Shown here: piece by piece, positions 23,142 through 64,000 of the stretch
Layout: each line of letters starts with the position of its first letter
Numbering within the stretch: the first letter of the stretch is position 1
Assembly: GCA_020444075.1 (NCBI GenBank)
Contig: JAHLLR010000006.1
Coordinates: 1 to 64,000 of the forward strand
DNA length: 64,000 nt
Origin: Deltaproteobacteria bacterium
GTDB taxonomy: Bacteria > Desulfobacterota > Desulfobacteria > Desulfobacterales > Desulfosarcinaceae
Direction of reading: 5' to 3'
The notes under the pieces: model-generated
What the model was told of the DNA's origin: nothing
What the model saw: only the letters and a program-made list of their open reading frames with translations
Database searches by the model: none
Program-made: the position numbers and the translations under genes

Positions 23142-23177
23142 GCCAAGCTTGATATTCCCATTGCAGACAATTTTTGC

Positions 23178-23269
23178 AGGGGCAATGGTGCTGGGCACCC
23201 CACGGTCTTCAAAACCGCTGGCCTCGCCTGAAAACCGAGGAGGAGGTTCGATTCCCCTTGCCCCTTCCA
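23178..23269 (+). tRNA. selC: tRNA-Sec (anticodon TCA)
   Basis: A 92-nt cloverleaf with an 8-bp acceptor (AGGGGCAA with TTGCCCCT), a long tight D-arm (GGTGC TGG GCACC), anticodon loop CTTCAAA giving TCA, a long variable arm (CCTCG...CGAGG), T-loop TTCGATT and encoded CCA. The long acceptor, extended variable arm and UCA anticodon identify selenocysteine tRNA. It ends 15 bp before the selB start, so both are probably on one transcript. Confidence 0.92.
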
Positions 23270-23284
23270 GAAAGGCCAGTCCGC

Positions 23285-25228
23285 ATGCAAACAGGCATCA
23301 CTATCGGCATTGCCGGCCACGTGGATCATGGGAAAACGTCTCTGGTCAGGGCGTTGAGCGGCATCGATACCGACCGCATGAAGGTAGAAAAAGAGCGCGG
23401 CCTTTCCATCGAGTCCGGGATCGCTCCACTGATCCTGCCGGGGGGGGCCACCGTGGCCCTGGTGGATGTCCCCGGCCATACGGATTATTTGAAGAATACC
23501 ATTCGCGGGCTCAGCGGTGTGGATCTGGCCATATTGGTGGTGGCTGCCGATGACGGCATCATGCCCCAGAGCCGGGAGCACCTGGATATCCTTAAGTTTT
23601 TCGGCGCAACAGGCGGGATCTGTGTTCTCAGCAAGGCCGACCTGGTGGATGAGGAAACCCTCGAGATCGCCGAGATGGAGCTGCAGGAGATCCTGGCCGG
23701 GTCCTTCCTGGAGGGAAAGCCGGTGGTCCGGTTTTCAGCCGGGTCCGGCCTCGGCGGGGATGCAATTGTCCGTTGTCTGGAACAGGAGATAGCCGGCCTG
23801 CCAAACAAAAGCAGCACGGCACCCTTCCGGCTCTGGATCGATCAGGTGAAAACCATCACCGGTCTGGGGACCGTGGTCAGCGGAACCGTGCGCTCAGGGT
23901 CCCTATCGCTTAACGATACGGTAGTCGTACTCCCCCCGCAGATCACTACCCGTATCCGATCCATGGAATCCCATAATCGGCAGACTGACCGTGTTTGTTC
24001 CGGACAGCGGGTAGGTATCAACCTGCACAACGTTCACACCCGTTCCCTGGCCAGGGGGATGCTGCTCGCTGGTCCCGAAATCGCCGGCAGCAGTTATCTG
24101 TTGAATGCGGAAATGGAGCTGTTGGCGCGGACCGTCTCGCCGCTCAAGAATCGACAGCGGGTCAAACTGTACGTGGGCACCGCTGCTGTCAATGCCATGG
24201 TCGTGCTCATGGAAAAGGAACATGTGGCGCCTGGAGACCGGACCCTGATTCAATTCCGCCTTCAAAAACCCTTGTCTGTGCTTCCCAGAGACCCATTTGT
24301 CATCACGTCATTGAATATTCCCACCGTTATCGGTGGAGGCACCATCTTGGAGGTGCCTGCCGAAAAATACAGAAAAGCCAAAACCCAACGGATTTTGCCC
24401 TATCTGGAAGCGCTCCGCAGCGGAAATATCAGCGCCTTTGTCGATGCCTATTTTGAATCAACCATAGAAAAATACACCGATGCACAAACCCTGTCACGAT
24501 CAACCGGACTTTCCCGGGCAGCCTTCGAAGCGCAGATCAGTGCACGGGTCAACTCCGGTGAATTTGTCTATCTGAAGCGCCATGGTGCCTATCGCCGGGA
24601 TAAATTCGAGCAGATCAAAGCTCAACTGTTCGCCGTCATCGAAAGGGCATTTAAACAGAATCCACTGAAGAAAAACGTCAACCGGATTGAATTGATGAAT
24701 TTGCTCGACATTTCCCTGGACGACATCCTTTTCACGCAACTGGTTGAAACCCTGTGCTCCGGGGGAAAATTGAAAAAGAGTGACGGCGGGTATCAGCTCC
24801 CGGACAGCCGGGGGCATCTGTCCGGTGAGCATGAAAAACTGGCCGATGCGCTGCTTGCCTACTCCCGGCGATCGGACATGACTCCATTCAGTGCGGATAC
24901 CTTCTGGAAAGAGCATGATAAAAACCATGAAAAAGAAGCGATCAAAGAACTGCTCAACTATCTGCATAACCGGAAAAAGTTGATTCGGCTGAACGATCAG
25001 CGTTTCCTTTCCCTCGAGGCACTCGATAAAATCAAGGACCGTGTTGCCCAATTTATCCGGCAACACGGGTGCCTCCGGCTGGCTGACTGCAAAGCCATAT
25101 TAGGTTACGGCCGGTGGGGCGGCGTCCACGTTTTCGATTACCTCGATAAAATCGGTTTCACCTCACGGGTGGGCGACAAGCGACTGCTCCGGCAGCCATC
25201 GGGAGGGTCCGGCGAACCAATCCATTGA
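23285..25228 (+). CDS. selB: selenocysteine-specific elongation factor SelB
   Basis: A 647-residue translation factor that brings Sec-tRNA to the ribosome at SECIS-marked UGA codons. The GTPase domain shows GHVDHGKTSL (G1), DVPGH (G3) and SKADLVDE (G4); two beta-barrel domains follow, and residues ~400-647 form the winged-helix repeats that bind the SECIS hairpin (ending LADCKAILGYGRWGGVHVFDY). I chose ATG 23285; the longer frame would run through the tRNA. With selC directly upstream, the cell evidently makes selenoproteins, though I see none with an in-frame TGA in this window. Confidence 0.95.
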   Translation: MQTGITIGIAGHVDHGKTSLVRALSGIDTDRMKVEKERGLSIESGIAPLILPGGATVALVDVPGHTDYLKNTIRGLSGVDLAILVVAADDGIMPQSREHLDILKFFGATGGICVLSKADLVDEETLEIAEMELQEILAGSFLEGKPVVRFSAGSGLGGDAIVRCLEQEIAGLPNKSSTAPFRLWIDQVKTITGLGTVVSGTVRSGSLSLNDTVVVLPPQITTRIRSMESHNRQTDRVCSGQRVGINLHNVHTRSLARGMLLAGPEIAGSSYLLNAEMELLARTVSPLKNRQRVKLYVGTAAVNAMVVLMEKEHVAPGDRTLIQFRLQKPLSVLPRDPFVITSLNIPTVIGGGTILEVPAEKYRKAKTQRILPYLEALRSGNISAFVDAYFESTIEKYTDAQTLSRSTGLSRAAFEAQISARVNSGEFVYLKRHGAYRRDKFEQIKAQLFAVIERAFKQNPLKKNVNRIELMNLLDISLDDILFTQLVETLCSGGKLKKSDGGYQLPDSRGHLSGEHEKLADALLAYSRRSDMTPFSADTFWKEHDKNHEKEAIKELLNYLHNRKKLIRLNDQRFLSLEALDKIKDRVAQFIRQHGCLRLADCKAILGYGRWGGVHVFDYLDKIGFTSRVGDKRLLRQPSGGSGEPIH

Positions 25229-32865: not shown

Positions 32866-34302
32866 CTATTTCCAGCTTTTCTGCATGTCATCCAGGGCCC
32901 TGATTGTGTCTGCAGGCAGCGGTTCCGGCCGATGGGCCATCTTTTTCAGGGTCACTTCCTGAAGCCGCTGTTCGAATGGTTTGGCGCCGGCGTTTTTCCA
33001 TTGGTCATAGACCATGCGCTCAAAGATCTCGGAGTATTTAATTTTTTTGAAGTTCTTGAGGGTATGGGGATCTTGGAGGTAGTGGCCTCCCGGACCCACG
33101 CGGTGGATCACCTCCAGGGCCAGGGTCTCTTCGGTGACCGGGATGCCCTGCATGTAGTGGTTGACCGAATCGACGATGTCGTGGACCAGCACCATGAATT
33201 CCGGTGAGGCCACCGAACCGTGGTCCATCCAGCTGCTGCAGTCATGCACGAGACCCGACCCGGCCGTAGCGGCGGAGAGAATCTGGAGCGCGGCTTCCGC
33301 GCCTGCCTGGGCGTCGCAGAATTTGGCGTCCGTGGCGCCCGCGGTGCCGAAGAACGGCAGCCCATAGTTTTGGGCCATCTGGGCCATGGCTGCGGTCATC
33401 AGGCTCATCTCCACGGCACCATAGGAGAAGACCGTGGAACGCATATCCATGATGGTGGTGAAGGCCCCGTAGATAAAGGGGGCACCGGGGTTGACCAGTT
33501 GGTGGACCACCAGGCCGCTGAGAGATTCGGCGCTGGCCTGGACCAGCGCTCCGGCGAAGGTGGCCGGTGAACTGCCGCAGCACTGGGGCGCCGGGAAGTT
33601 GATCAGCGGGATGCGTTTCTCGGCGCAGTACATGACCTTGTCGATGGCCGGGTCGAAATAGACCAGGGGTGAAATGGGCTCGGAGTAGTGCACGATGGTG
33701 GGTGCCTCGTCGAACTTCTCCCTGCCGCCGCAAAGCAGCAGGGCCATCTCATAGGTGTCTTTGACGCTGTTGGTGTCCTTGCAGCAAAAGACCAAAGGTT
33801 TCTCGCAGTTTTCGAACACCTTGCGGGCGATGACCCGGTCGGCGATGTCGGCGGGCACGTCGTCGGCCATGCCGATGGTCATGCACCACTGGAAGTTGGG
33901 CAGCGAGTCGCACAGGGCGGCCGTGGTTTTGACGTTGTCGCTGACAAAGCGCGTGCGTTTATGGGTTTGGGGATCCATGTAGTCGACGCAGTCCAGGCTG
34001 GGGCCGAAAAAGCTCTTGTCCCTTTCCAGAAATATGGTGCGCTCACCGGTGCGCTTGGCCAGAACAATGCGGGACGGGGCTTTGCGGATGGCATCTTCCA
34101 CCAGCCACCCCGGAATCCTGACCCGGTCGCCGTTGACCCGGGCGCCGGCTCCGGCCAGGCGTTCCAGGGCTTTCGGGTGTGTGATCTTGATCCCCGTGCG
34201 CTCCAGCACATCCAGCGTGGCCATATGGATCTGGGCAATCTGGGCGTCGTTGACGACCTGAAGACGGGGTTTGAAGGTAAGTTCGTCCGTTGTCATTCCC
34301 AT
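32866..34302 (-). CDS. MttB-family (COG5598) methyltransferase, non-pyrrolysine
   Basis: A 478-residue TIM-barrel methyltransferase of the trimethylamine methyltransferase superfamily. The frame is continuous with no in-frame TAG, so it is not a pyrrolysine enzyme. Such members demethylate quaternary amines like glycine betaine, carnitine or proline betaine onto a corrinoid protein. The C-terminal GPGGHYLQDPHTLKNF segment is typical. AAGGAG lies eight bases before ATG 34302. No corrinoid protein or second methyltransferase gene adjoins it, so partners must lie elsewhere. Confidence 0.85.
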   Translation of the reverse strand: MGMTTDELTFKPRLQVVNDAQIAQIHMATLDVLERTGIKITHPKALERLAGAGARVNGDRVRIPGWLVEDAIRKAPSRIVLAKRTGERTIFLERDKSFFGPSLDCVDYMDPQTHKRTRFVSDNVKTTAALCDSLPNFQWCMTIGMADDVPADIADRVIARKVFENCEKPLVFCCKDTNSVKDTYEMALLLCGGREKFDEAPTIVHYSEPISPLVYFDPAIDKVMYCAEKRIPLINFPAPQCCGSSPATFAGALVQASAESLSGLVVHQLVNPGAPFIYGAFTTIMDMRSTVFSYGAVEMSLMTAAMAQMAQNYGLPFFGTAGATDAKFCDAQAGAEAALQILSAATAGSGLVHDCSSWMDHGSVASPEFMVLVHDIVDSVNHYMQGIPVTEETLALEVIHRVGPGGHYLQDPHTLKNFKKIKYSEIFERMVYDQWKNAGAKPFEQRLQEVTLKKMAHRPEPLPADTIRALDDMQKSWK

Positions 34303-34731
34303 GGATGATCTCCTTATTTTTAAAAGCATTGTTAAACCGTATGGGCAATTTAAAAAAGAGAAAAATATTTTTCTATTCTGGCTGAAAGCGTTTTCCGCAG
34401 ATTGAGAAATTTGATCTCAAGGCTTCCATCGACAGGATTCCTTTGGACAAGTTGCCAACCCTCTGATACCGGAAACGCCCGCACGCTGAATGGACTCACA
34501 AGCTTTTGAAACGTCTTGACCGATCCGAGCAAAGGCGGTAATCTTTCTCTGATTCAACGGTTTTTCCTTCACTCCGGTTTTGAAATACGTAATTCCAAAA
34601 AAAACATGATCATTGAAAGGGCGGGTAGATGCCTTCGAACCACGATTTCGATTGTCCGTTATTCAATAGCCGCCGGCCGATCGCATGCGACAATAACCCG
34701 GATGTTATCACCACCCACAGGAGATGATGCA
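34303..34731. other. 429-bp divergent spacer between mttB-like and acyl-CoA ligase genes
   Basis: It holds a perfect 16-bp A/T-rich palindrome at 34359-34374 (AGAAAAATATTTTTCT), 57 bp upstream of the methyltransferase start and a candidate operator, and the ligase ribosome-binding site (CAGGAG). I see no other gene or RNA in it. Confidence 0.4.
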
Positions 34732-54199: not shown

Positions 54200-55447
54200 T
54201 TACATGTTTTCGGCAATGGTAATTGTCCGGTCGCCAAGCATATTTACGTAGCTGCCCATCTCGTTGTCGTACCAGCCGTAGATCACGGCCTGGGTGACCG
54301 GTGCGCGAACCACCGTGTCCGTGAGGCTTTTCAGCACGGACTGGGAAAAGCCGGGAATACTGGCCAGGTCCAGGCTCAGGTCGGCCGTGCGGGTATGGGT
54401 TTCATCTCCCTCGATCACCGCCGCTGCCTGGGGAGAGCCGAGAATATCCCCGGAAACATTCTGTTTCTCGGTATATTTCAGATAGCCGTTGGGATCCAGC
54501 TGGGCTGCCTGCTCGTAGACACTGTTGATCACGCCGCGGCGAACCGGTTCTTCGGAAGGGGTTTCCTGAATACTGAGTACCAGGATGATCAGGGACCCCG
54601 AACTGACGGGCACCCGCACCGACTCGGCAATGAATCCGATGTGCTCCATTTCTGGAATCACCAGCCTCAGGGCCTTTGCCGCACCGGTTGAGGTGAGGAT
54701 AATATTGTTTAAAATCGACCGGTTTTTTCTCAGGTCGGTCTTGCCGGCTTTGGGCAGGCGATCCAGGACCTGCTGGGAGCCGGTAGCGGCATGGATCGTG
54801 GCCATGGAGGCCGACAGGACCCGTTTGGCACCGAATGCGTTGATCAGGGGCTTCATCATGTGGGCCAGGCAGGTGGTCGTGCACGAGGCGTTGGAAACGA
54901 CCCGGTGGCGCCGGGGGTCGTAGTCGTTGGCGTTGATCCCCATCACCGTCGTGACCGCATCGGCGGGCATGGCGGCGCCTTCTTCCTTTATCTTGAAGGG
55001 GGCGGAGACCACCACTTTTTCGGCGCCGGCTTCCAGGTGTCCCCTGACCGATCCTTTGGGATGGTCGGCGGGAATCGTAGGGTCCAGGAACTGACCGGTG
55101 GTGTCCACTACCAGGCGCACGCCGTGAGCTTTCCAGTCGATGGCCTGGGGGAGGCGTGCGTTGCGCAAAAGCCGCACGGTGATGCCGTCCACAACCATGG
55201 TTCCGGCGCTGTCGTCGATGTCGGTAATCACCGGCTTGGCCTGGTACCCGTGGAGAAAGGCATGCAGGGCGCCATAGGTGGAGTCCCGTTCCAGGTAGTG
55301 GGCGACGTCAGCCAGGCCCGTGCCGGCCTGACGACCGATATTGACCACGATTTCGTTAAAGTATCGCCGTCCCACATGATGCCACACCGTGAGTTTGCCG
55401 ATACGGCCGAGCCCGTTGATACCGATTTTCATCTGTCCTTCGTTCAT
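54200..55447 (-). CDS. gap: glyceraldehyde-3-phosphate dehydrogenase
   Basis: A 415-residue GAPDH, longer than the usual ~335 because of insertions in the N-terminal half. NAD-binding INGLGRIGKL is near residue 9, the catalytic Cys is in SNASCTTTCLAHMMKPL near 198, and the C-terminal WYDNEMGSYVNMLGD is intact. CAGGAG eight bases upstream supports ATG 55447. The enlarged form resembles a class often found beside unusual PPDK-like genes. It lies 15 bp downstream of the giant kinase-like gene, so they probably form one operon. Confidence 0.9.
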   Translation of the reverse strand: MNEGQMKIGINGLGRIGKLTVWHHVGRRYFNEIVVNIGRQAGTGLADVAHYLERDSTYGALHAFLHGYQAKPVITDIDDSAGTMVVDGITVRLLRNARLPQAIDWKAHGVRLVVDTTGQFLDPTIPADHPKGSVRGHLEAGAEKVVVSAPFKIKEEGAAMPADAVTTVMGINANDYDPRRHRVVSNASCTTTCLAHMMKPLINAFGAKRVLSASMATIHAATGSQQVLDRLPKAGKTDLRKNRSILNNIILTSTGAAKALRLVIPEMEHIGFIAESVRVPVSSGSLIILVLSIQETPSEEPVRRGVINSVYEQAAQLDPNGYLKYTEKQNVSGDILGSPQAAAVIEGDETHTRTADLSLDLASIPGFSQSVLKSLTDTVVRAPVTQAVIYGWYDNEMGSYVNMLGDRTITIAENM

Positions 55448-55462
55448 GGTATTTTCTCCTGA

Positions 55463-58400
55463 TCAGGCTTCACGGATCTTCATGGTTCCTTGATAAACCG
55501 AACCCTCCCGACCGTCAATGCTAATATGGTCTCCCGACCGGATGACCACCTCGTTGAAAAGGGCGTTTTTTTCCTTTTCGTTGCACACCAGGGTGCCGCA
55601 TCCTACCACGCAGGTCTTGCCCAGCCGGTGGGCCACCACCGATGCATGGCTGGTCAGCCCGCCCCTGGCGGTGAGTACCCCGTCACTGGCGTAAATCTCC
55701 TTGATATCGTCGGGAACGGTGTCTCCGCGAATCAGGATAAGGGCTGTGGCCGGTTCCGTTTCCCGCCAGTGGTCGATTTCGTCCAAGGTAAAGACCGCCC
55801 GGCCGACCATGGCTCCGCCGGCAACGCCGATGCCGTGTCCCAGGTAGCGATTTCCCGGATCGGCCTCCACGTCGAAGGCAAGCACGGTTTTGCGCTCCCG
55901 GATGGCCATGTCACGGGTTTGAAGCAGATAAATGTCCTTGGCTGAAGTACCTTCGAAAGTAAATTCCATCTCCTGGGGGCTCCAGCCTTTTTTGTAAATG
56001 AGCTGGGCCGCCCATTTGCGGATGGCCGCATAAATGGCCGGGTAGTGGGTCTCCAGGGTGATGTCCGTGTCCCGCATCTCTATTTCCTGCTGTTTGACCG
56101 AAATGGGCAGGGTCCTCACCAGGCCGGCCACCACGTCTTCGCCCTGGTTTTCAAGGGTGAAATCGCCCCACGGGCTCAGGGTGTCGCCGGACCAGCGGGG
56201 ATTGTGGGTGAAAAAAACTCCGGAGCCCGCCTGGGGGGAGATATTGCCGAAAACCATTTCCTGGACGGTGACGGCGGTGCCCCAATCGTCCGAAATGCCC
56301 ATGATCTTCCGGTAGGTCTGCGCCCGGGGGGATTCCCAGGAGGAGAAAACTGCGTTGATGGTCATAAAGAGCTGATCCATGGGGTCTTCGAGCATTTCCA
56401 CGCCCGCGTCCTTGATCCGGGCTTTGTAAGCCAGGGCCACCATTTTCATCTGCCCGCCGGTGAATCCTTTTTTCAGGGGGATGCCCAGCCGTGACTTGAA
56501 TTCGGCAATAATGGCGTCAAAATCGTCGCGCTCCAGCCCGAAGGCCATGCCGTAGCACTGCAGGAACCGACGGTAGTTGTCCCAGGCGAACCAGGGATTG
56601 TCCCTCTTGTGGGCCAGGCCCGCGGCAATTTCCTCGTTGATTCCTACATTCAGAAAGGTTTCCATCATGCCGGGTTGAGAAATGGAGGCACCGCTGCGCA
56701 CCGAGAAGAGCAGGGGGTTGGCCGGGTCTCCGAATCGTTTCCCGCTGATCTTCTGAAGCTGGTTGATGTGCCGCCGAACCTGCTGCCGGAAGTTCTTCTT
56801 TACCGGAGCAAAGCCATCGATCAGTTCCCGGCAGCGAAAGGCTTCGGTGGTGACGATGAAACCCGGGGGCACCGGCAGTCCCAGGTTTTTCAGCTTGAGC
56901 AGGTTCAGCCCCTTGTTGCCCATATAGATGATGCCGACGGCGTTGTTGTTGACCTGTTCCAGGCCGGTGATGATCCGCTGGGGGTCATAGTTGAGCAGCA
57001 GGTGGAGCTTGTCCTTGGGGAGCATGTTGGACTGGTGAAACAAGGTGTTGAGTATCCGGGTTAAAAACAGGTCCAGCTGCTGCAGGCCCAGGGAGGTGGC
57101 GATGCGGTCGCGGAAAAAGATCTCGGAGACGCGGTGCTTGAGCTTCTCCGCATCCACCGCGTGCTCTTGCGGAAGGTATTTTTCCAGGATCCGGTCCATG
57201 GGCATATGAGAGAGAATGCGCGTCAGATTCTGCCCGTGAATGTTGTTGAAATAGTCGTTGATGATGTTTTTGACGGCAACGGCGAATCCCTTGAAAATAT
57301 CCAGGTACTGGGTGAAGGTGAATCCCCTCACTTCCAGGGCGTGGGCCAGCAGATCCAGCTGGCGCTCCAGCTCCACCGAATAGATGCCGTCCAGGCGAAG
57401 GGCCTTGTCAAACAGGGTGAGCCGTTCATAAATGTCGTGAAACGTGGCCCGGGTGATCAGGCCCAGATTGATCTGGTCCACCAGCTCTTCGAACAGCACG
57501 TTGATCAGGGATTCGACCCGGAAGGTAAGCCCCAGTGCATCGAACTTGCGTTCGTGGTAACTGCCGTACATGGAGGGGATATCGATGGTAATGTGGCGTT
57601 TTTTGTATATGTCCGCCCGGATTTCGTAAGTCTCCTCGGAGAGAATGATCGCCTTGAGGCGCTCCAGGTAGTCCATCAGCATGAACAGCCGCCGCTTCAG
57701 GTCGGGCTCGTCCAGGGCGGCGCGCAACCTCTCCAGGTCCGGAAAGGACTCCCTGTCCAACTGCTTCAGGTGGTGTCTGAGGGATTTATAGTCCAGCTGA
57801 TACTTGTGATAAAGCAGTTTGTAAAAGGCGGCGAGGAGCACCACCCGTTCGGTGTCGACGGCATGGGGGCCGGGTGATTCAGCCAGCAGCGCATGGATGC
57901 GTTCGTTTTCCTCCACGAGCAGTTCTTCGGGAAGCGTCATGCCCCGGTTGCTCAGATGGGCGAACAGGACGTTGACCCCGTCGATGTATTCCCCATGGGT
58001 TTCGATTTGCTCGAAGATGCTGGGGGGGACAAAGGGCTGAAGCGGCGCCTTGTCTCTTGTTTTCCAGAAGTGCAGGACCGCCTCCATGAACCGGATGATG
58101 CGGTTGGAACTCTCCACATGGCTTTGTTTTCGCAAAAAATGGATGAGTATGTCCCGACGGTGGGTGATTTCATCCAGCCGGGTGGAGATATCACGCAGGG
58201 CGCCTTCTGCGCCGATGTCGTTAAAATAGGACGGAAAGAGGCGGGTCAGCTGTTTGGCAAGATTATAGACCGGCCCGATTTCACTGTTGAGAAAACGGGT
58301 GATGTCCCTGGGGAACAGGTCCGTGTCTTTGATGAAGATTCCGGATAACGAGAGTTTGATGATCAGGCTGGAGAGCAGTCGCGAGGACCATTTGGGTTTG

Positions 58401-59668
58401 CACTCGATCAGTTCCATCCAGGTGCGGATGTTCTGCAGGTGAGCCGAATTGACCTGGATCTGCCAGTCGTTGCCCACGCCGCCCAGCATGGGGGTCTGGA
58501 ATCCCAGATCCACCACCCGGTCGATAAAAAAATTCACCTGGTCGATCTCATCGGTCTTGTAGACCCCCTGACCCATGTTGAGAACGCAGGTGAGGGTCGT
58601 TGCCGGAAACTGCTCCGTCCGGGTTTTCAGGATGTACAAGGTTTTTTCGATCAGGTCTCCGATGTGCCGGTAGCTCTCATTTTCGATCAGCCAGCCGACG
58701 GTACGGTTGATGTCGCGCAAGGCCTCTTCATGGATCAGGTTCAGGCCGGAAATACTCATGATATGAAAGAGAAAAATAACCTTCCACTGGTTGCCCTGCC
58801 CGGCGTCGCTGCCTGCCTCCATCAGCATCTGGGGCATCTTGCGGTAACGTTCGACGATGGCGCTGAAATCCGTCAGGGAGAGCAGCTGGTTGAATATCGA
58901 CGGGGCATCGCCTTCCGGCAGGTTTTCGATCTGGTGCAGATGGCCTTTCAGGGCGTGCAGCACTTCATGGGAAATTTCTGAAAAACAGGCGCGGACGGGC
59001 TCCGGATCCCGGATCTGGCCCGCCGCCGCCTGAAAAGACTCCCACGGGTCTTTGACCTCGCACCAGAAATCATAGGTGACGTTGAAGGTGCGGATTAAAA
59101 GTCGATTGAGCACCCTATAGTCGGTGATGGCGCTGTTGCCGCGATCTCCCAACAGCCGAATGATGCGTTTGATCGGGTAGAAACTTTTGACAAAGAGAAA
59201 AAACCGCTCGTCCGGGCAGTCGTGGATCCAGTTGAAAGCCGTGTTGAGTACCGGCAGAAAATCGGGAAGCCGGTCACGCGAATCGCCGATAATCTGCTGC
59301 AGATACAACAGCAGGTTGTCCACCGCATCGGTGCGGACGTCATCATCCACATTGGCCTCGATGACTTCGCTGAATATCCCTACCATGGCCCCCGCCGCTT
59401 CCACGCCCCGGGGGTGGGACTGATACAGATGGAAGTAATCCAGTGCATATCCCCTGGCCTCCCCCACGATAAACTGCCAATTGCGATAGGGATGGCTCAG
59501 TTCCCGAAGGAAGGTGTTCACCCCTTCCATCAACCCGAAGTAGCGGGACATGACTGCCTGGATGCATTCATACCGGGCATCGATGGTCACATCCACATAG
59601 GTGTTGGCTAGGTTGGCTTCAAGGGCTTTGGACTTGATCATTGTCATCTTTGCAGAAGATTCCCTCAT
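55463..59668 (-). CDS. giant PPDK-like phosphotransferase lacking the PEP/pyruvate barrel
   Basis: A 1401-residue cytoplasmic protein. Residues 1 to about 900 are helical and unrecognised. From about 905 there is a PPDK-type ATP-grasp domain (GNKGLNLLKLKNLGLPVPPGF, SVRSGASISQPGMMET, LLQTRD), then the swivelling phosphohistidine domain with GGLTSHASVVAHRLG (His near 1343). The protein ends right after that domain, so the C-terminal barrel that binds PEP/pyruvate in PPDK and PEP synthase is absent. It can probably form phosphohistidine from ATP, but the phosphate acceptor is unknown. Co-directional with gap. Alternative starts are at 59647 and 59641. Confidence 0.8.
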   Translation of the reverse strand: MRESSAKMTMIKSKALEANLANTYVDVTIDARYECIQAVMSRYFGLMEGVNTFLRELSHPYRNWQFIVGEARGYALDYFHLYQSHPRGVEAAGAMVGIFSEVIEANVDDDVRTDAVDNLLLYLQQIIGDSRDRLPDFLPVLNTAFNWIHDCPDERFFLFVKSFYPIKRIIRLLGDRGNSAITDYRVLNRLLIRTFNVTYDFWCEVKDPWESFQAAAGQIRDPEPVRACFSEISHEVLHALKGHLHQIENLPEGDAPSIFNQLLSLTDFSAIVERYRKMPQMLMEAGSDAGQGNQWKVIFLFHIMSISGLNLIHEEALRDINRTVGWLIENESYRHIGDLIEKTLYILKTRTEQFPATTLTCVLNMGQGVYKTDEIDQVNFFIDRVVDLGFQTPMLGGVGNDWQIQVNSAHLQNIRTWMELIECKPKWSSRLLSSLIIKLSLSGIFIKDTDLFPRDITRFLNSEIGPVYNLAKQLTRLFPSYFNDIGAEGALRDISTRLDEITHRRDILIHFLRKQSHVESSNRIIRFMEAVLHFWKTRDKAPLQPFVPPSIFEQIETHGEYIDGVNVLFAHLSNRGMTLPEELLVEENERIHALLAESPGPHAVDTERVVLLAAFYKLLYHKYQLDYKSLRHHLKQLDRESFPDLERLRAALDEPDLKRRLFMLMDYLERLKAIILSEETYEIRADIYKKRHITIDIPSMYGSYHERKFDALGLTFRVESLINVLFEELVDQINLGLITRATFHDIYERLTLFDKALRLDGIYSVELERQLDLLAHALEVRGFTFTQYLDIFKGFAVAVKNIINDYFNNIHGQNLTRILSHMPMDRILEKYLPQEHAVDAEKLKHRVSEIFFRDRIATSLGLQQLDLFLTRILNTLFHQSNMLPKDKLHLLLNYDPQRIITGLEQVNNNAVGIIYMGNKGLNLLKLKNLGLPVPPGFIVTTEAFRCRELIDGFAPVKKNFRQQVRRHINQLQKISGKRFGDPANPLLFSVRSGASISQPGMMETFLNVGINEEIAAGLAHKRDNPWFAWDNYRRFLQCYGMAFGLERDDFDAIIAEFKSRLGIPLKKGFTGGQMKMVALAYKARIKDAGVEMLEDPMDQLFMTINAVFSSWESPRAQTYRKIMGISDDWGTAVTVQEMVFGNISPQAGSGVFFTHNPRWSGDTLSPWGDFTLENQGEDVVAGLVRTLPISVKQQEIEMRDTDITLETHYPAIYAAIRKWAAQLIYKKGWSPQEMEFTFEGTSAKDIYLLQTRDMAIRERKTVLAFDVEADPGNRYLGHGIGVAGGAMVGRAVFTLDEIDHWRETEPATALILIRGDTVPDDIKEIYASDGVLTARGGLTSHASVVAHRLGKTCVVGCGTLVCNEKEKNALFNEVVIRSGDHISIDGREGSVYQGTMKIREA

Positions 59669-59904
59669 GGCTCCGGTTGTCTGTTTAAAACTAAACTATC
59701 AGAGCGATGCCTGTATTTCAAGCTGAGCCTTATCCGGTTTTCGATTTCCGTTTTGAGAAAAATGTGATATTTAGAAAATACCCTCTGGAATCATAGGGTT
59801 GACCCGCCTCCGGTGCTCCGGCTGAGCATGACGGCAACCACCACGCCGGCATGAATGCACCAGGGGCCGCCAATTTGCCTTTTCACCCCACACAGGTCAT
59901 GGTC

Positions 59905-62151
59905 ATGGATGAAAAAGAAATATACCTGGATGCTGCCGCAGAACAGCTTTTTTCCCAGCTTGAAGGAATCGAAGAACACAAAAAAGGCCGGTCGGCCGCT
60001 GAAATGATGGCTGAGAGCCTGGCCGAAGAACAGAAACAGCAGGATGTCTGGCGGATTTTGCTCTGTGAAATTATACATCACATTGCCGGCTATTTTCAAC
60101 GCATGGATCTGGACGCCCGGCAAACCGAAGAGCGTCAGACCTTTGATCAACTGGGGGAGACCCTGGGCAAACTGTCCCAGTTGCCCCAGCAGGCGGGGCG
60201 GATTCTGGTCCGCTATCGAGGACTTTCCGCGAATTCGGACATCCCCGAACGGTTGGACTACGAAATCCTTTTCGGGAATATGGTCGTGGACCTGGATTTT
60301 GTGCCCACGATGATCAAACGCCACGGGTCCCTGCTTGCCCACCTGATGGGCCAATTGCTGGACGCTTTCGGAATCTTCTCTGACCGGGGCATCAACAACC
60401 TGCACCTGAACCTGCCCAAAGGCGATCCCGATTCTCTGGACCGGTTGCGTCGCAGTCTTCACATTCTTTGCCGGCTTTACCGGGCACACGAGAATCAGCG
60501 TGACATTGTCCTGGGAGCCGGAAAAGAGAATCTGGTGCCCATGGTATCCGATGAAAAGGGGGGCCTCAGTACCAATCTGACCCTGGTGGCCGGCGTCAAC
60601 CGATTGGGCGCCAAAACCATGCGCAACCTCGTCACCAAAGTAGATGCCTGGATGCAGAAAAAAGAGGCGTCCGACGAAGGCTGTCAGTATACCAGCGTGT
60701 ACAATGCCATTTTCGGTCTGCCCAAACTCAGCGCTCAACTGATTCCTCCACCCATTGAGATCAACAACCTGGATTGGCTCATGCGGGGGGAGAGTGAAGA
60801 AAATTTTACCCGGGAAAAAGCCAAAGTGGCAAGGATTATCGCCAGCGTGGAAGCCTCACCCGAAAAAGCCGCCAAGGTGATAAAAAGCGTTTACGGTGAC
60901 GACTACCAGAAGATTAATTCTCACCATCTGGAGGAGCGGCTGGGGCTTTCCTCCGATCTGCTTCGGGCCATTGACAACAAGCCTAAAAGCGAAGATGCCC
61001 GGCAAGAGGTGCTGACCAACCTGAAACAGCGCCTGGACACCGTGAGAGACGACGTGTTCGACAACCTGTATTTCACCCGCTCCGAAGACAGCGAGGTGGG
61101 GGCGCGCGGGTCCATCCTGGGTGCAGTCCACCGGCAGCTGTATAAAATGGTCTCTTTTTTCAAAGGGCGATCCTCCACCCGTAAAAAGATGACTTCCATG
61201 GTTCACGGCACCATCCAGTTTGAAGAGCGGGATTTTGAGGTCCTGGCCGAGGACTTTGACATCGATATGGATGAAGCCCGCCAGTTGGTTGATGTGTTGA
61301 AAAAGTGTTTCAACGAGAAGGGCCGCTTCCTGAAATCGTCTTTTGCCGACGCCCTGCCCCGGTTCGCCCGCTACGAGAAAAAGATTTTCGAATTCCTGTG
61401 GCGGCATCTCAAGGATGTGGTGGCACCGGAAGACCGTACCGCTTTCCTCAATGCCCTGCAGATGCTTTCCGCCAGGATGAACCAGCCCAAGCGGGCGTTC
61501 AAGATTCTGCTGGAGGATTTTCTCAAGGATTCCGGCGATATTCAATTTTCAGACGCCAAGGCCCTGGTGCTGGCCAACCTCATCCTCCACGAATATGACA
61601 AGAGCCTGGCCGACATCGAAATAACGCCGGAGGATATCCTTTTCAACCAGCGTGGCCTTAACCAAGAGGTGGCACGGTATGCCGCCTGGCGCATGGATCG
61701 AGACCAGGAAGCCTTTTTCGACAAGGTCCGGATCATTCATCAGGGGCTGTGCGAAGCCCTGGAATTTGGGATGACACGCAGGCACCGCCTTTCCGCCAGG
61801 GATCTTTTAGGTCTGGAGCGGGAGGTTTATATCTTTTTGTCCATGATCGAAACGACCGTGGGGCGATCGGTGCTGCGCAGTGCCGTTACCGAATACGGCA
61901 GCCCGGAATCGGACCTTTACTTTCTGAAGGAGAGCGACCGGTTCATGTCCCACCTGCTCCAGAATCTGCGGATTGCCATTCGTGGGCTGGCGAATATCGG
62001 CAGCATGGATAGCTTGCCGTCCCTGGAAGCGGTAAAAACGAGGGAGGAGGTCTTTCAGCGCCTCAAGAAAACCAAGGCGCACCGTGATCAGTCGCGGCTT
62101 ATTTCGGAATGGGTGGACGAGGCGGTCAAGATTATCAAGTTCCGTGCGTAG
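59905..62151 (+). CDS. large helical protein of unknown function, divergent from the PPDK-like gene
   Basis: A 748-residue soluble, mainly helical, charged protein with no signal, membrane segment or recognised motif. It contains low-complexity acidic and basic helices (IYLDAAAEQLFSQLEG, KSEDARQEVLTNLKQRLD, FKILLEDFLKDSGDIQFSDAK) and no obvious catalytic signature. I chose ATG 59905, where AGG lies eight bases upstream; ATGs at 59899 and 59851 are alternatives. The short divergent spacer (236 bp) with the giant kinase-like gene suggests they function together, for instance as its acceptor or regulator (inference). Confidence 0.75.
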   Translation: MDEKEIYLDAAAEQLFSQLEGIEEHKKGRSAAEMMAESLAEEQKQQDVWRILLCEIIHHIAGYFQRMDLDARQTEERQTFDQLGETLGKLSQLPQQAGRILVRYRGLSANSDIPERLDYEILFGNMVVDLDFVPTMIKRHGSLLAHLMGQLLDAFGIFSDRGINNLHLNLPKGDPDSLDRLRRSLHILCRLYRAHENQRDIVLGAGKENLVPMVSDEKGGLSTNLTLVAGVNRLGAKTMRNLVTKVDAWMQKKEASDEGCQYTSVYNAIFGLPKLSAQLIPPPIEINNLDWLMRGESEENFTREKAKVARIIASVEASPEKAAKVIKSVYGDDYQKINSHHLEERLGLSSDLLRAIDNKPKSEDARQEVLTNLKQRLDTVRDDVFDNLYFTRSEDSEVGARGSILGAVHRQLYKMVSFFKGRSSTRKKMTSMVHGTIQFEERDFEVLAEDFDIDMDEARQLVDVLKKCFNEKGRFLKSSFADALPRFARYEKKIFEFLWRHLKDVVAPEDRTAFLNALQMLSARMNQPKRAFKILLEDFLKDSGDIQFSDAKALVLANLILHEYDKSLADIEITPEDILFNQRGLNQEVARYAAWRMDRDQEAFFDKVRIIHQGLCEALEFGMTRRHRLSARDLLGLEREVYIFLSMIETTVGRSVLRSAVTEYGSPESDLYFLKESDRFMSHLLQNLRIAIRGLANIGSMDSLPSLEAVKTREEVFQRLKKTKAHRDQSRLISEWVDEAVKIIKFRA

Positions 62152-62482: not shown

Positions 62483-62578
62483 GGAATCGGTCAAATACTT
62501 GTTTGCATGCGGATTGCCCGCAGGCCGACGGGGCGAAATGAACGCCTGCAGGGCTGTCATTCAGAAAGGTTTGAATAC

Positions 62579-63433
62579 ATGATCATCAGCATCGCCAGCG
62601 GGAAAGGGGGCACCGGAAAGACCACCGTGGCCACCAACCTTGCGGTATCGGTAGACGGTCCGGTCCAGTTGTTGGACTGTGACGTGGAAGAACCCAATGC
62701 CCATCTGTTTCTGCGGCCATCCATCCAGGAAACTAAAACCGTCACCACCCCCATTCCTGAAATTGACCTGGAAAAGTGCAACCAATGCAAAAAATGCATG
62801 GAGATCTGCCGGTTCAGGGCTATTGCCGTGATCGGGGATACGGTGCTCACATTTCCCGAGCTTTGCCATAGCTGCGGGGGGTGCATGGCGGTCTGCCCCG
62901 AGGGGGCAATCATCGAAACGGGACGGGAACTGGGCGTTCTGGAAACCGGTACCGTGAACGGCGTCTCCTTTGTCCACGGGAGACTGCGGGTGGGGGAAGC
63001 CATGTCTCCCCCGCTGATCCGGGCTGTCCGGGACCGCACCCGGGCCGGCGGCCTGACATTGATCGACGCCCCGCCGGGCACTTCATGCCCGGTAATCGCC
63101 GCCATGAAGGATACTGATTTTGTCCTGCTGGTCACCGAACCGACGCCCTTCGGCCTTCACGATCTGAAACTGGCCGTGGAAGCGGTGAAAATACTGAAGA
63201 TTCCCATGGGGCTGGTGATCAATCGCGCCGATATGGGTGACGATCGGGTCAGGACCTATGCCAGAAGCGAAAGGATTCCCATCCTGATGGAGATTCCCTT
63301 TGACCGGCAGATCGCCGAAAGCTATTCCCGCGGGGAAATGTTCACCCTGGCCCTCCCCGAATGGAAGGCCCGTTTTCGTGGGCTGCTTGAAGATATCAAA
63401 ACCCTGGTCGGAAAGGGGGCAGGCACAAAATGA
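62579..63433 (+). CDS. MinD/Mrp-type ATPase with inserted ferredoxin domain, first copy
   Basis: A 284-residue P-loop NTPase of the COG1149 type. The deviant Walker A is SGKGGTGKTTVATNLA near residue 7. Two [4Fe-4S] motifs are inserted (CNQCKKCMEICRF near 63 and CHSCGGCMAVCPE near 92), and the switch DAPPGTSCPV is near residue 164. Such pairs are linked to Fe-S or metal-cofactor insertion. AAAGG precedes ATG 62579. Its stop overlaps the second copy's start as ATGA. Confidence 0.88.
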   Translation: MIISIASGKGGTGKTTVATNLAVSVDGPVQLLDCDVEEPNAHLFLRPSIQETKTVTTPIPEIDLEKCNQCKKCMEICRFRAIAVIGDTVLTFPELCHSCGGCMAVCPEGAIIETGRELGVLETGTVNGVSFVHGRLRVGEAMSPPLIRAVRDRTRAGGLTLIDAPPGTSCPVIAAMKDTDFVLLVTEPTPFGLHDLKLAVEAVKILKIPMGLVINRADMGDDRVRTYARSERIPILMEIPFDRQIAESYSRGEMFTLALPEWKARFRGLLEDIKTLVGKGAGTK

Positions 63434-64000
63434 AAGAACTGGTTATCTTAAGCGGAAAAGGGGGCACCGGTAAGACCAGCCTGACAGCCGCTTTTGCCAC
63501 CTTGGCTGCCGGCTGCCTGCTCTGCGATGCGGATGTGGATGCGGCGGACCTCCACCTGCTGATGCAGCCCGATATTCGCAAGCGGACCGATTTTCAGGGT
63601 GGCGGGATGGCGGTGATCGACCTGCAGCGATGCACCGGCTGCGGGACGTGCATCGACATGTGCCGGTGGTCGGCCATCGGATCGGACTTTGTCGTCGATC
63701 AGATTGCCTGCGAAGGCTGTGGCGTCTGTGTGGATTTCTGCCCGGAGCAGGCCGTTGATTTCCCGGTTAAAACCTGCGGTCAGTGGTTTGTTTCCGATAC
63801 CCGCTTCGGACCCATGGTGCATGCACGGCTGGGCATTGCCGAGGAGAATTCCGGGAAGCTGGTGACCCTGGTACGTCAGCAGGCCAGGCAATTGGCCGAA
63901 GAGAAAGGTCATGACCTGATCCTCACTGACGGACCGCCGGGAGTGGGATGTCCGGTGATCGCCTCGGTCGGCGGTGCCACCAGCGTGGTGATCGTTGCCG
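63430..64000 (+). CDS. MinD/Mrp-type ATPase with inserted ferredoxin domain, second copy (partial)
   Basis: The first 190 residues of a paralogue of the preceding gene, cut by the window edge. Walker A is SGKGGTGKTSLTAAFA near residue 8, the ferredoxin motifs are CTGCGTCIDMCRW near 68 and CEGCGVCVDFCPE near 94, and the switch is DGPPGVGCPV near 167. The two genes are translationally coupled and probably form a heterodimer. Further cofactor-assembly genes may follow outside the window. Confidence 0.88.
   Translation, partial: MKELVILSGKGGTGKTSLTAAFATLAAGCLLCDADVDAADLHLLMQPDIRKRTDFQGGGMAVIDLQRCTGCGTCIDMCRWSAIGSDFVVDQIACEGCGVCVDFCPEQAVDFPVKTCGQWFVSDTRFGPMVHARLGIAEENSGKLVTLVRQQARQLAEEKGHDLILTDGPPGVGCPVIASVGGATSVVIVA

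Follow-up and report, generated by a model that had tools for sequence, protein, structure and literature searches.

We analyzed a stretch of 64,000 nucleotides from a bacterium of the Desulfosarcinaceae (Deltaproteobacteria bacterium, assembly GCA_020444075.1, contig JAHLLR010000006.1, positions 1 to 64,000; hereafter the window). It encodes a 1401-residue protein related to pyruvate, phosphate dikinase (PPDK), referred to here as the giant, together with an enlarged glyceraldehyde-3-phosphate dehydrogenase (GAPDH), the long GAPDH. Both genes lie on one strand, the giant first and the long GAPDH downstream, with 15 bases between them. The pair is real and conserved, and it is undescribed within the literature searched: among the titles and abstract openings that searches aimed at the system listed, none describes it. 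The features of the locus, with the evidence for each in brackets, are:

54200..55447, minus strand: enlarged divergent GAPDH, 415 amino acids (open reading frame (ORF) list; both Gp_dh domains over cut-off; profile search)
55463..59668, minus strand: giant PPDK-like dikinase without a barrel, 1401 amino acids (ORF list; Pfam; alignment to 1kbl_A; conservation)
58517..59668, minus strand: giant residues 1-384, N-terminal helical region, a generic alpha-solenoid (AlphaFold model; only generic helical-repeat similarity)
57014..58516, minus strand: giant residues 385-885, helical module, putative acceptor site (invariance; AlphaFold model)
55910..56926, minus strand: giant residues 915-1253, ATP-grasp domain with Lys919, Arg991, Glu1235, Gln1250 and Arg1252 (Pfam; NCBIfam; 1kbl_A alignment; conservation)
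55475..55876, minus strand: giant residues 1265-1398, phosphohistidine swivel domain (Pfam; 1kbl_A alignment; conservation)
55646-55648, minus strand: codon of the catalytic His1341 of the giant (computed coordinates)
59851..62151, plus strand: divergent neighbor, 766 amino acids (748 when counted from Met19), judged not to be part of the system (Pfam; NCBIfam; neighborhood comparison)

The giant begins with about 890 helical residues lacking a family match, continues with a complete PPDK-type ATP-grasp domain, and ends with a phosphohistidine domain at the C terminus. In the Pfam scan, PPDK_N (E 1.1e-30) and PEP-utilizers (E 3e-16) exceeded their cut-offs, both within residues 957-1389; no other family matched at E <= 0.01, including any barrel family, PF05524, or any carbohydrate-binding family. 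The top NCBIfam model was that of PPDK (TIGR01828), but the score of 393.8 bits did not reach the cut-off of 843.45, and the phosphoenolpyruvate (PEP) synthase equivalog TIGR01418 was missed even more clearly (78.3 bits versus 739.75). The final 505 residues aligned with residues 17-514 of the 873-residue PPDK chain 1kbl_A (E 1e-91), the two shared domains matching end to end together with the catalytic His and the ATP-site residues; the part missing from the giant is therefore the barrel half of PPDK. In the same alignment, the His domain extends to the C terminus, with no PEP/pyruvate barrel beyond it; the extra helical residues lie at the other end. Two AlphaFold models, one covering residues 9-886 (mean pLDDT 81.8, 38 sequences) and one covering 385-885 (mean pLDDT 76.5, 29 sequences), were helical and contained no barrel. 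When the N-terminal profile was compared by hhalign with seven further dikinase-type proteins encoded in this genome, its PPDK among them, the probabilities were at most 2.1%; the value for the protein that we label RPH-like, which scores below the RPH cut-off, was 0.2% from a single sequence. A cryptic barrel in the N-terminal region was ruled out by the Pfam scan, both AlphaFold models, and hhalign. By its predicted domain content, the giant is neither a PPDK nor a PEP synthase, and the genome carries an ordinary PPDK besides (1083 bits versus a cut-off of 843). Full-length giants from other genera of the order are 56-64% identical, so the gene is more than a chance ORF.

Conservation was examined in an alignment of 118 rows, namely 117 locus sequences and the protein encoded in the window (L001 is this same protein), from which rows shorter than 1300 residues, rows below 300 bits, and identical rows had been left out. 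His1341, Lys919, Arg991, and Glu1235 were kept in 118/118 rows and Gln1250 and Arg1252 in 117/118; their positions come from the 1kbl_A alignment and the conservation alignment, and we take their catalytic roles to be those of the dikinase family. Invariance extended into the N-terminal 885 residues, where W402, N407, H410, D448, D450, G486-A487-E488-G489, R492, T496, D499, R513, K514, H517, K690-R691-H692, P698, S699, Y701, G702, Y704, E706, K708, F709, and R717 were identical in all 118 rows. Most of the invariant loops of this part fall in residues 385-885. Except at the chain termini, the loops modelled with low confidence in residues 9-886 coincide with these invariant stretches and could reflect a binding site that is empty in the model. 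Fold searches with the N-terminal models gave no PDB match at E <= 1e-3 and none among viral models. The top VIA matches were a designed repeat protein (Z 10.4, root-mean-square deviation 17.5, 329 aligned residues) and a membrane protein (Z 9.4, root-mean-square deviation 3.3, 105 aligned), both with scores of a size that the tool also gives to helical models lacking true relatives. Among the matches listed there were no RPH, EI, or PPDK chains, which does not by itself exclude RPH. A PDB sequence search with the N-terminal region likewise yielded nothing convincing, with one match at E 1.7. A structural description of the locus had already been given in the original prediction, made from the nucleotide sequence, and it held: intact ATP-grasp and phosphohistidine domains, some 900 unmatched residues in place of a barrel, and a tandem arrangement with an oversized GAPDH. 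Profile comparisons and structure models revealed no PEP-binding barrel hidden among the unmatched residues.

Both Gp_dh domains of the long GAPDH exceeded the Pfam cut-off, as in type I GAPDH, and Cys189, His219, and Arg278, presumably the catalytic Cys and His and the phosphate-site Arg, are kept. It differs from the type I enzyme by several insertions, by a score of 321 bits against the TIGR01534 equivalog cut-off of 367.2, and by a Gly38-Arg39 pair found in 21/21 long GAPDHs, in a region where 8/8 ordinary ones have Asn-Asp and where the alignment can shift by two residues. Passages of PMC3728087 describe Asp32 of GAPDH as contacting the 2'-hydroxyl of NAD; if Gly38-Arg39 indeed takes the place of Asn-Asp, the long GAPDH likely prefers NADPH. 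Three of the six tested genomes of one genus (G087, G124, and G283) have no other Gp_dh_C match than the long GAPDH, so it is probably a working GAPDH.

The distribution of the pair was determined within the phylum, in a set of 395 genomes from 246 genera, the giant being counted by its N-terminal profile and the long GAPDH by its profile at E <= 1e-75. The giant was found in 117/395 genomes (71/246 genera), the long GAPDH in 116/395, and both together in 114 genomes from 37 family-level groups. Only three genomes had the giant without the long GAPDH, namely G171 (76% complete), G367, and G441, the last two holding no more than a distant relative of the giant, and two had the long GAPDH without the giant (G064, 79% complete; G136, 62% complete). 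The association is near-obligate (Fisher p 3e-93), although this test ignores shared ancestry and the independent support is thus less than it looks. Among 60 relatives, a query with the giant matched 59, of which G027, G034, G038, G046, G049, and G055 matched through their PPDK only, leaving the giant in 53/60. Plasmid records gave no match.

The distant relatives in G367 and G441, full-length proteins such as the 1485-residue product of L160:6872-11326 (G367), show a PPDK_N match and no PEP-utilizers match at 1e-4; they make up a second branch of the family whose partners differ, in genomes without the long GAPDH. The window's own genome encodes a further dikinase in which the barrel may be missing (L088:1069-3711, contig C155). 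This 881-residue protein has ATP-grasp and His domains that cover positions 6-467 of the 798 in the PEP-synthase profile, and its approximately 300 C-terminal residues had no match at 1e-20. L089 (C90) is similar in size.

Gene neighborhoods were compared in two sets of loci, 75 (many of them short) from a contig scan with patterns of near relatives and 39 from the phylum genomes. Where 3 kb of downstream sequence was available, the long GAPDH was the next gene on the same strand in 56/57 contig-scan loci and lay further on in the remaining one (L041). With at least 3 kb downstream, it was next on the same strand in 23/36 phylum loci and on the other strand in three more. The other 10/36, from eight families (G073, G146, G203, G213, G234, G266, G274, G316, G394, and G440), had no long GAPDH in the fetched stretch, and all ten genomes have it elsewhere. 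That these ten genomes keep both genes although they are not adjacent argues for a functional tie. In 23 genomes, the giant and the top-scoring long GAPDH are on different contigs (one of them, G125, also has a partial GAPDH beside the giant at a contig end); since different contigs do not prove distance, the argument is based on the ten loci. Of nine tested genomes with the long GAPDH away from the giant, five have PGK within 1 kb of it (G073, G146, G203, G213, and G251); the other four were G234, G264, G266, and G440.

In the fetched stretches of the 39 phylum loci, an ordinary GAPDH was present in 22, PGK in 14, and TPI in 14. A CODH/ACS methyltransferase gene lay directly upstream of the giant on the same strand in 20 of the 59 contig-scan loci that had 1.2 kb or more of upstream sequence and in 2/38 phylum loci, and genes for the CODH/ACS gamma and alpha/beta subunits followed beyond it in many loci. 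The fullest neighborhood (L128) reads kdsA-kdsC-lptC-lptA-lptB-rpoN-hpf-ptsN-rapZ-EIIA-Man-rimI-GAPDH-giant-long GAPDH-PGK-TPI-SecG, where kdsC, lptA, lptB, and rimI are our labels for domain matches and lptC is named by position. In Dissulfurimicrobium hydrothermale, passages of the genome paper list LGS26_08520 as a phosphoenolpyruvate synthase between the GAPDH tags LGS26_08515 and LGS26_08525, with PGK (LGS26_08510) next but one, and infer CO2 fixation via the Wood-Ljungdahl pathway and gluconeogenesis (PMC8780430). We took G159 to be this organism, and its gene order around the giant agrees. The same genome holds the long GAPDH and PGK twice with equal scores (C1:505470-507924 and 1777503-1779957), a recent duplication of the GAPDH-PGK stretch.

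The best reading of the giant is a variant of the swivelling-His dikinases that derives from PPDK and has acquired a new acceptor module. The ATP-grasp domain would cut ATP, His1341 would carry the phosphate, and the His domain would swing to the N-terminal helical module, which would stand in for the pyruvate barrel and bind an acceptor among its invariant charged loops. This transfer from ATP to an acceptor on the helical module is proposed by analogy, because the His domain of RPH and HpeHI moves between separate ATP and acceptor sites, as described in passages of PMC4844700 and PMC12167813. Known dikinases of this type (RPH, HpeHI, CreHI, and PpsAB) share with the giant an ATP-grasp and a His swivel domain combined with a non-barrel acceptor module; in the giant, however, the putative acceptor module comes before the ATP-grasp domain and greatly exceeds theirs in size, and the ATP-grasp domain is closer to that of PPDK. 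RPH has the order ATP-grasp, acceptor domain, His domain, which the order of helical module, ATP-grasp, and His domain in the giant does not follow.

That a His dikinase is functionally tied to the long GAPDH we regard as probable. Pairs of a kinase that makes an acyl-phosphate and a reductase that consumes it are familiar, as with aspartate kinase and aspartate-semialdehyde dehydrogenase, and by analogy the long GAPDH could be the reductase of such a pair. The giant would then phosphorylate a carboxylate to an acyl-phosphate that its partner reduces. As a first candidate, the acceptor might be 3-phosphoglycerate or a sugar acid related to it, one of the carboxylates around GAPDH; this is the weakest step of the proposal, and we consider it doubtful. 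The CODH/ACS neighborhood, the one autotroph, and the coenzyme motif suggest that the pair would work in the sugar-building direction. As a whole, a dikinase with a helical acceptor module that acts in sugar synthesis together with a GAPDH of its own, probably of the NADPH type, is the explanation that we tentatively favor. A more specific version, in which an ATP-to-AMP dikinase yields 1,3-bisphosphoglycerate or a sugar-acid phosphate for the NADPH-type GAPDH and thereby drives the entry into triose phosphates with energy, appears to us rather unlikely. The original prediction of a phosphorelay or kinase coupled to triose-phosphate metabolism is thus borne out in its genetic part, the tie to GAPDH, PGK, and TPI genes being strong, while a relay and a metabolite kinase are indistinguishable at the sequence level.

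Several observations weigh against this proposal. PGK was kept in 40/40 pair-bearing genomes tested, including G087 (in G032 as a 62-position fragment only), and an ordinary GAPDH in 39/40, so neither step obviously needs a substitute. This retention weakens a simple replacement of PGK by the giant, and its consistency lowered our confidence both in the energy-driven entry and in the favored explanation as a whole; a second energy-driven route, another sugar acid, and regulation of GAPDH are options besides replacement. Between-species distances of the giant correlate with those of the ordinary GAPDH (Spearman 0.87, 21 loci) at least as well as with those of the long form (0.78, 23 loci), so this comparison does not discriminate between them. 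No match in the PDB and viral fold searches identifies the acceptor module, and the likely NADPH preference depends on the shiftable stretch of alignment. CdhC, tried as a CODH/ACS marker that might predict the pair, was rejected in the comparison of 80 genomes, being present in 35/40 pair-bearing and 30/40 pair-lacking ones (Fisher p 0.25, no separation), although the genes adjoin in some loci.

Retention of PGK and the ordinary GAPDH would be expected if the giant controlled the pathway instead of replacing a step in it. Its His domain might phosphorylate the long GAPDH or another pathway protein, or the giant might be an ATP-sensing scaffold controlling triose-phosphate flux, with the alpha-solenoid as a protein-binding surface. 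We see such a role as possible but on balance unlikely. In its N-terminal third, the giant resembles solenoids of the HEAT/ARM type, a class that often binds proteins, and it co-occurs with one particular GAPDH even when unlinked. The solenoid similarity is generic, however, the full conservation of the catalytic residues speaks against a merely structural role, and in our judgement a site for a small anionic ligand accounts better for the invariant charged loops than a protein interface does. A precedent for regulation exists in haloarchaea, where passages of PMC10948481 describe a PEP-synthase-like protein turned DNA-binding regulator: PspR of Haloferax mediterranei keeps the ATP-binding and His domains and has an acceptor part with a new role, but it is described there as closer to RPH and as DNA-binding, whereas the gene associated with the giant encodes a GAPDH.

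It is improbable that the giant makes PEP after all, with pyruvate bound on the helical module or on a barrel supplied in trans. The catalytic half is closest to PPDK and LGS26_08520 is listed as a PEP synthase in the material seen from PMC8780430; nevertheless, the giant has no barrel, both equivalog cut-offs are missed by far, an ordinary PPDK is present in the same genome, and no barrel protein recurred in the neighborhoods compared, no genome-wide search having been made. Phosphorylation of glycogen in the manner of plant glucan water dikinase is very improbable: a cluster with a starch-synthase-type member (one identified) lay in the fetched stretch of 4/41 neighborhoods compared, but PF08323 was found in 36/40 pair-bearing and 33/40 pair-lacking genomes, and the giant has no carbohydrate-binding family match. 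The glycogen link was rejected for this lack of association with PF08323. The position of rpoN-hpf-ptsN-rapZ-EIIA-Man directly upstream in a subset of loci (rapZ in 11/39 phylum loci) would fit an ATP-driven stand-in for enzyme I of the phosphotransferase system, phosphorylating HPr, PtsN, or EIIA-Man. We hold this to be very improbable, for rapZ was found in 0/75 contig-scan loci (many short) and enzyme I (PF05524) in 36/40 pair-bearing and 39/40 pair-lacking genomes, the window's own included. As a replacement of enzyme I, the giant was rejected because enzyme I is retained; the giant itself matches neither PF05524 nor a barrel.

Central carbon metabolism is generally regarded as mapped, yet a highly conserved giant carried by many bacteria of the phylum, sulfate reducers among them, is listed in one genome paper as a PEP synthase despite missing the PEP-forming domain. 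As an enzyme, the giant would provide the swivelling-His dikinases with a new acceptor module, and gluconeogenesis perhaps with a new step; as a regulator, it would exert a new control of the GAPDH node. An energy-driven entry, if true, would be a near-irreversible gluconeogenic alternative to PGK/GAPDH in CO2-fixing bacteria of the phylum, related to these enzymes as PEP synthase is to pyruvate kinase. The pairing makes the function directly testable with two purified proteins.

The divergently transcribed neighbor had been proposed as a 748-residue acceptor or regulator of the giant. Its ORF comprises 766 amino acids; a start at Met19 gives 748 and is plausible, since alignments with homologs from other genera begin at about residues 14-21. 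No Pfam or NCBIfam model matched at E <= 0.01, and a PDB sequence search gave nothing convincing (one match, E 0.81). The gene stands beside the giant in 7/75 contig-scan loci (six of Desulfosarcina and one 86% identical relative) and 0/39 phylum loci; it also adjoins the giant, divergently as in the window, in G047 from another family. Matches of some kind occurred in 36/60 relatives and none in 24/60, compared with 53/60 for the giant, and the homologs examined in other genera have different neighbors. The protein was ruled out as a component of the system because it adjoins the giant only in Desulfosarcina-like loci and G047, and its proposed role was abandoned. Of the suggested co-occurrence of three genes, that of the giant with the long GAPDH (114 genomes) remained and that of the 766-residue protein fell away.

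Four further features of the window were noted. A tRNA-Pro (ggg) call at 54745-54815, which lies opposite the GAPDH gene on the other strand, is probably false. Two adjoining ORFs at 62507-63999 match CbiA/ParA-type P-loop and 4Fe-4S ferredoxin families. An ORF for a SelB-type elongation factor lies at 23174-25228; because a tRNA-Sec call (23178-23269) overlaps its start, selenocysteine use is likely and the listed start of the ORF is likely too early. At 32866-34329, the window encodes a protein of the trimethylamine methyltransferase (MttB) family.

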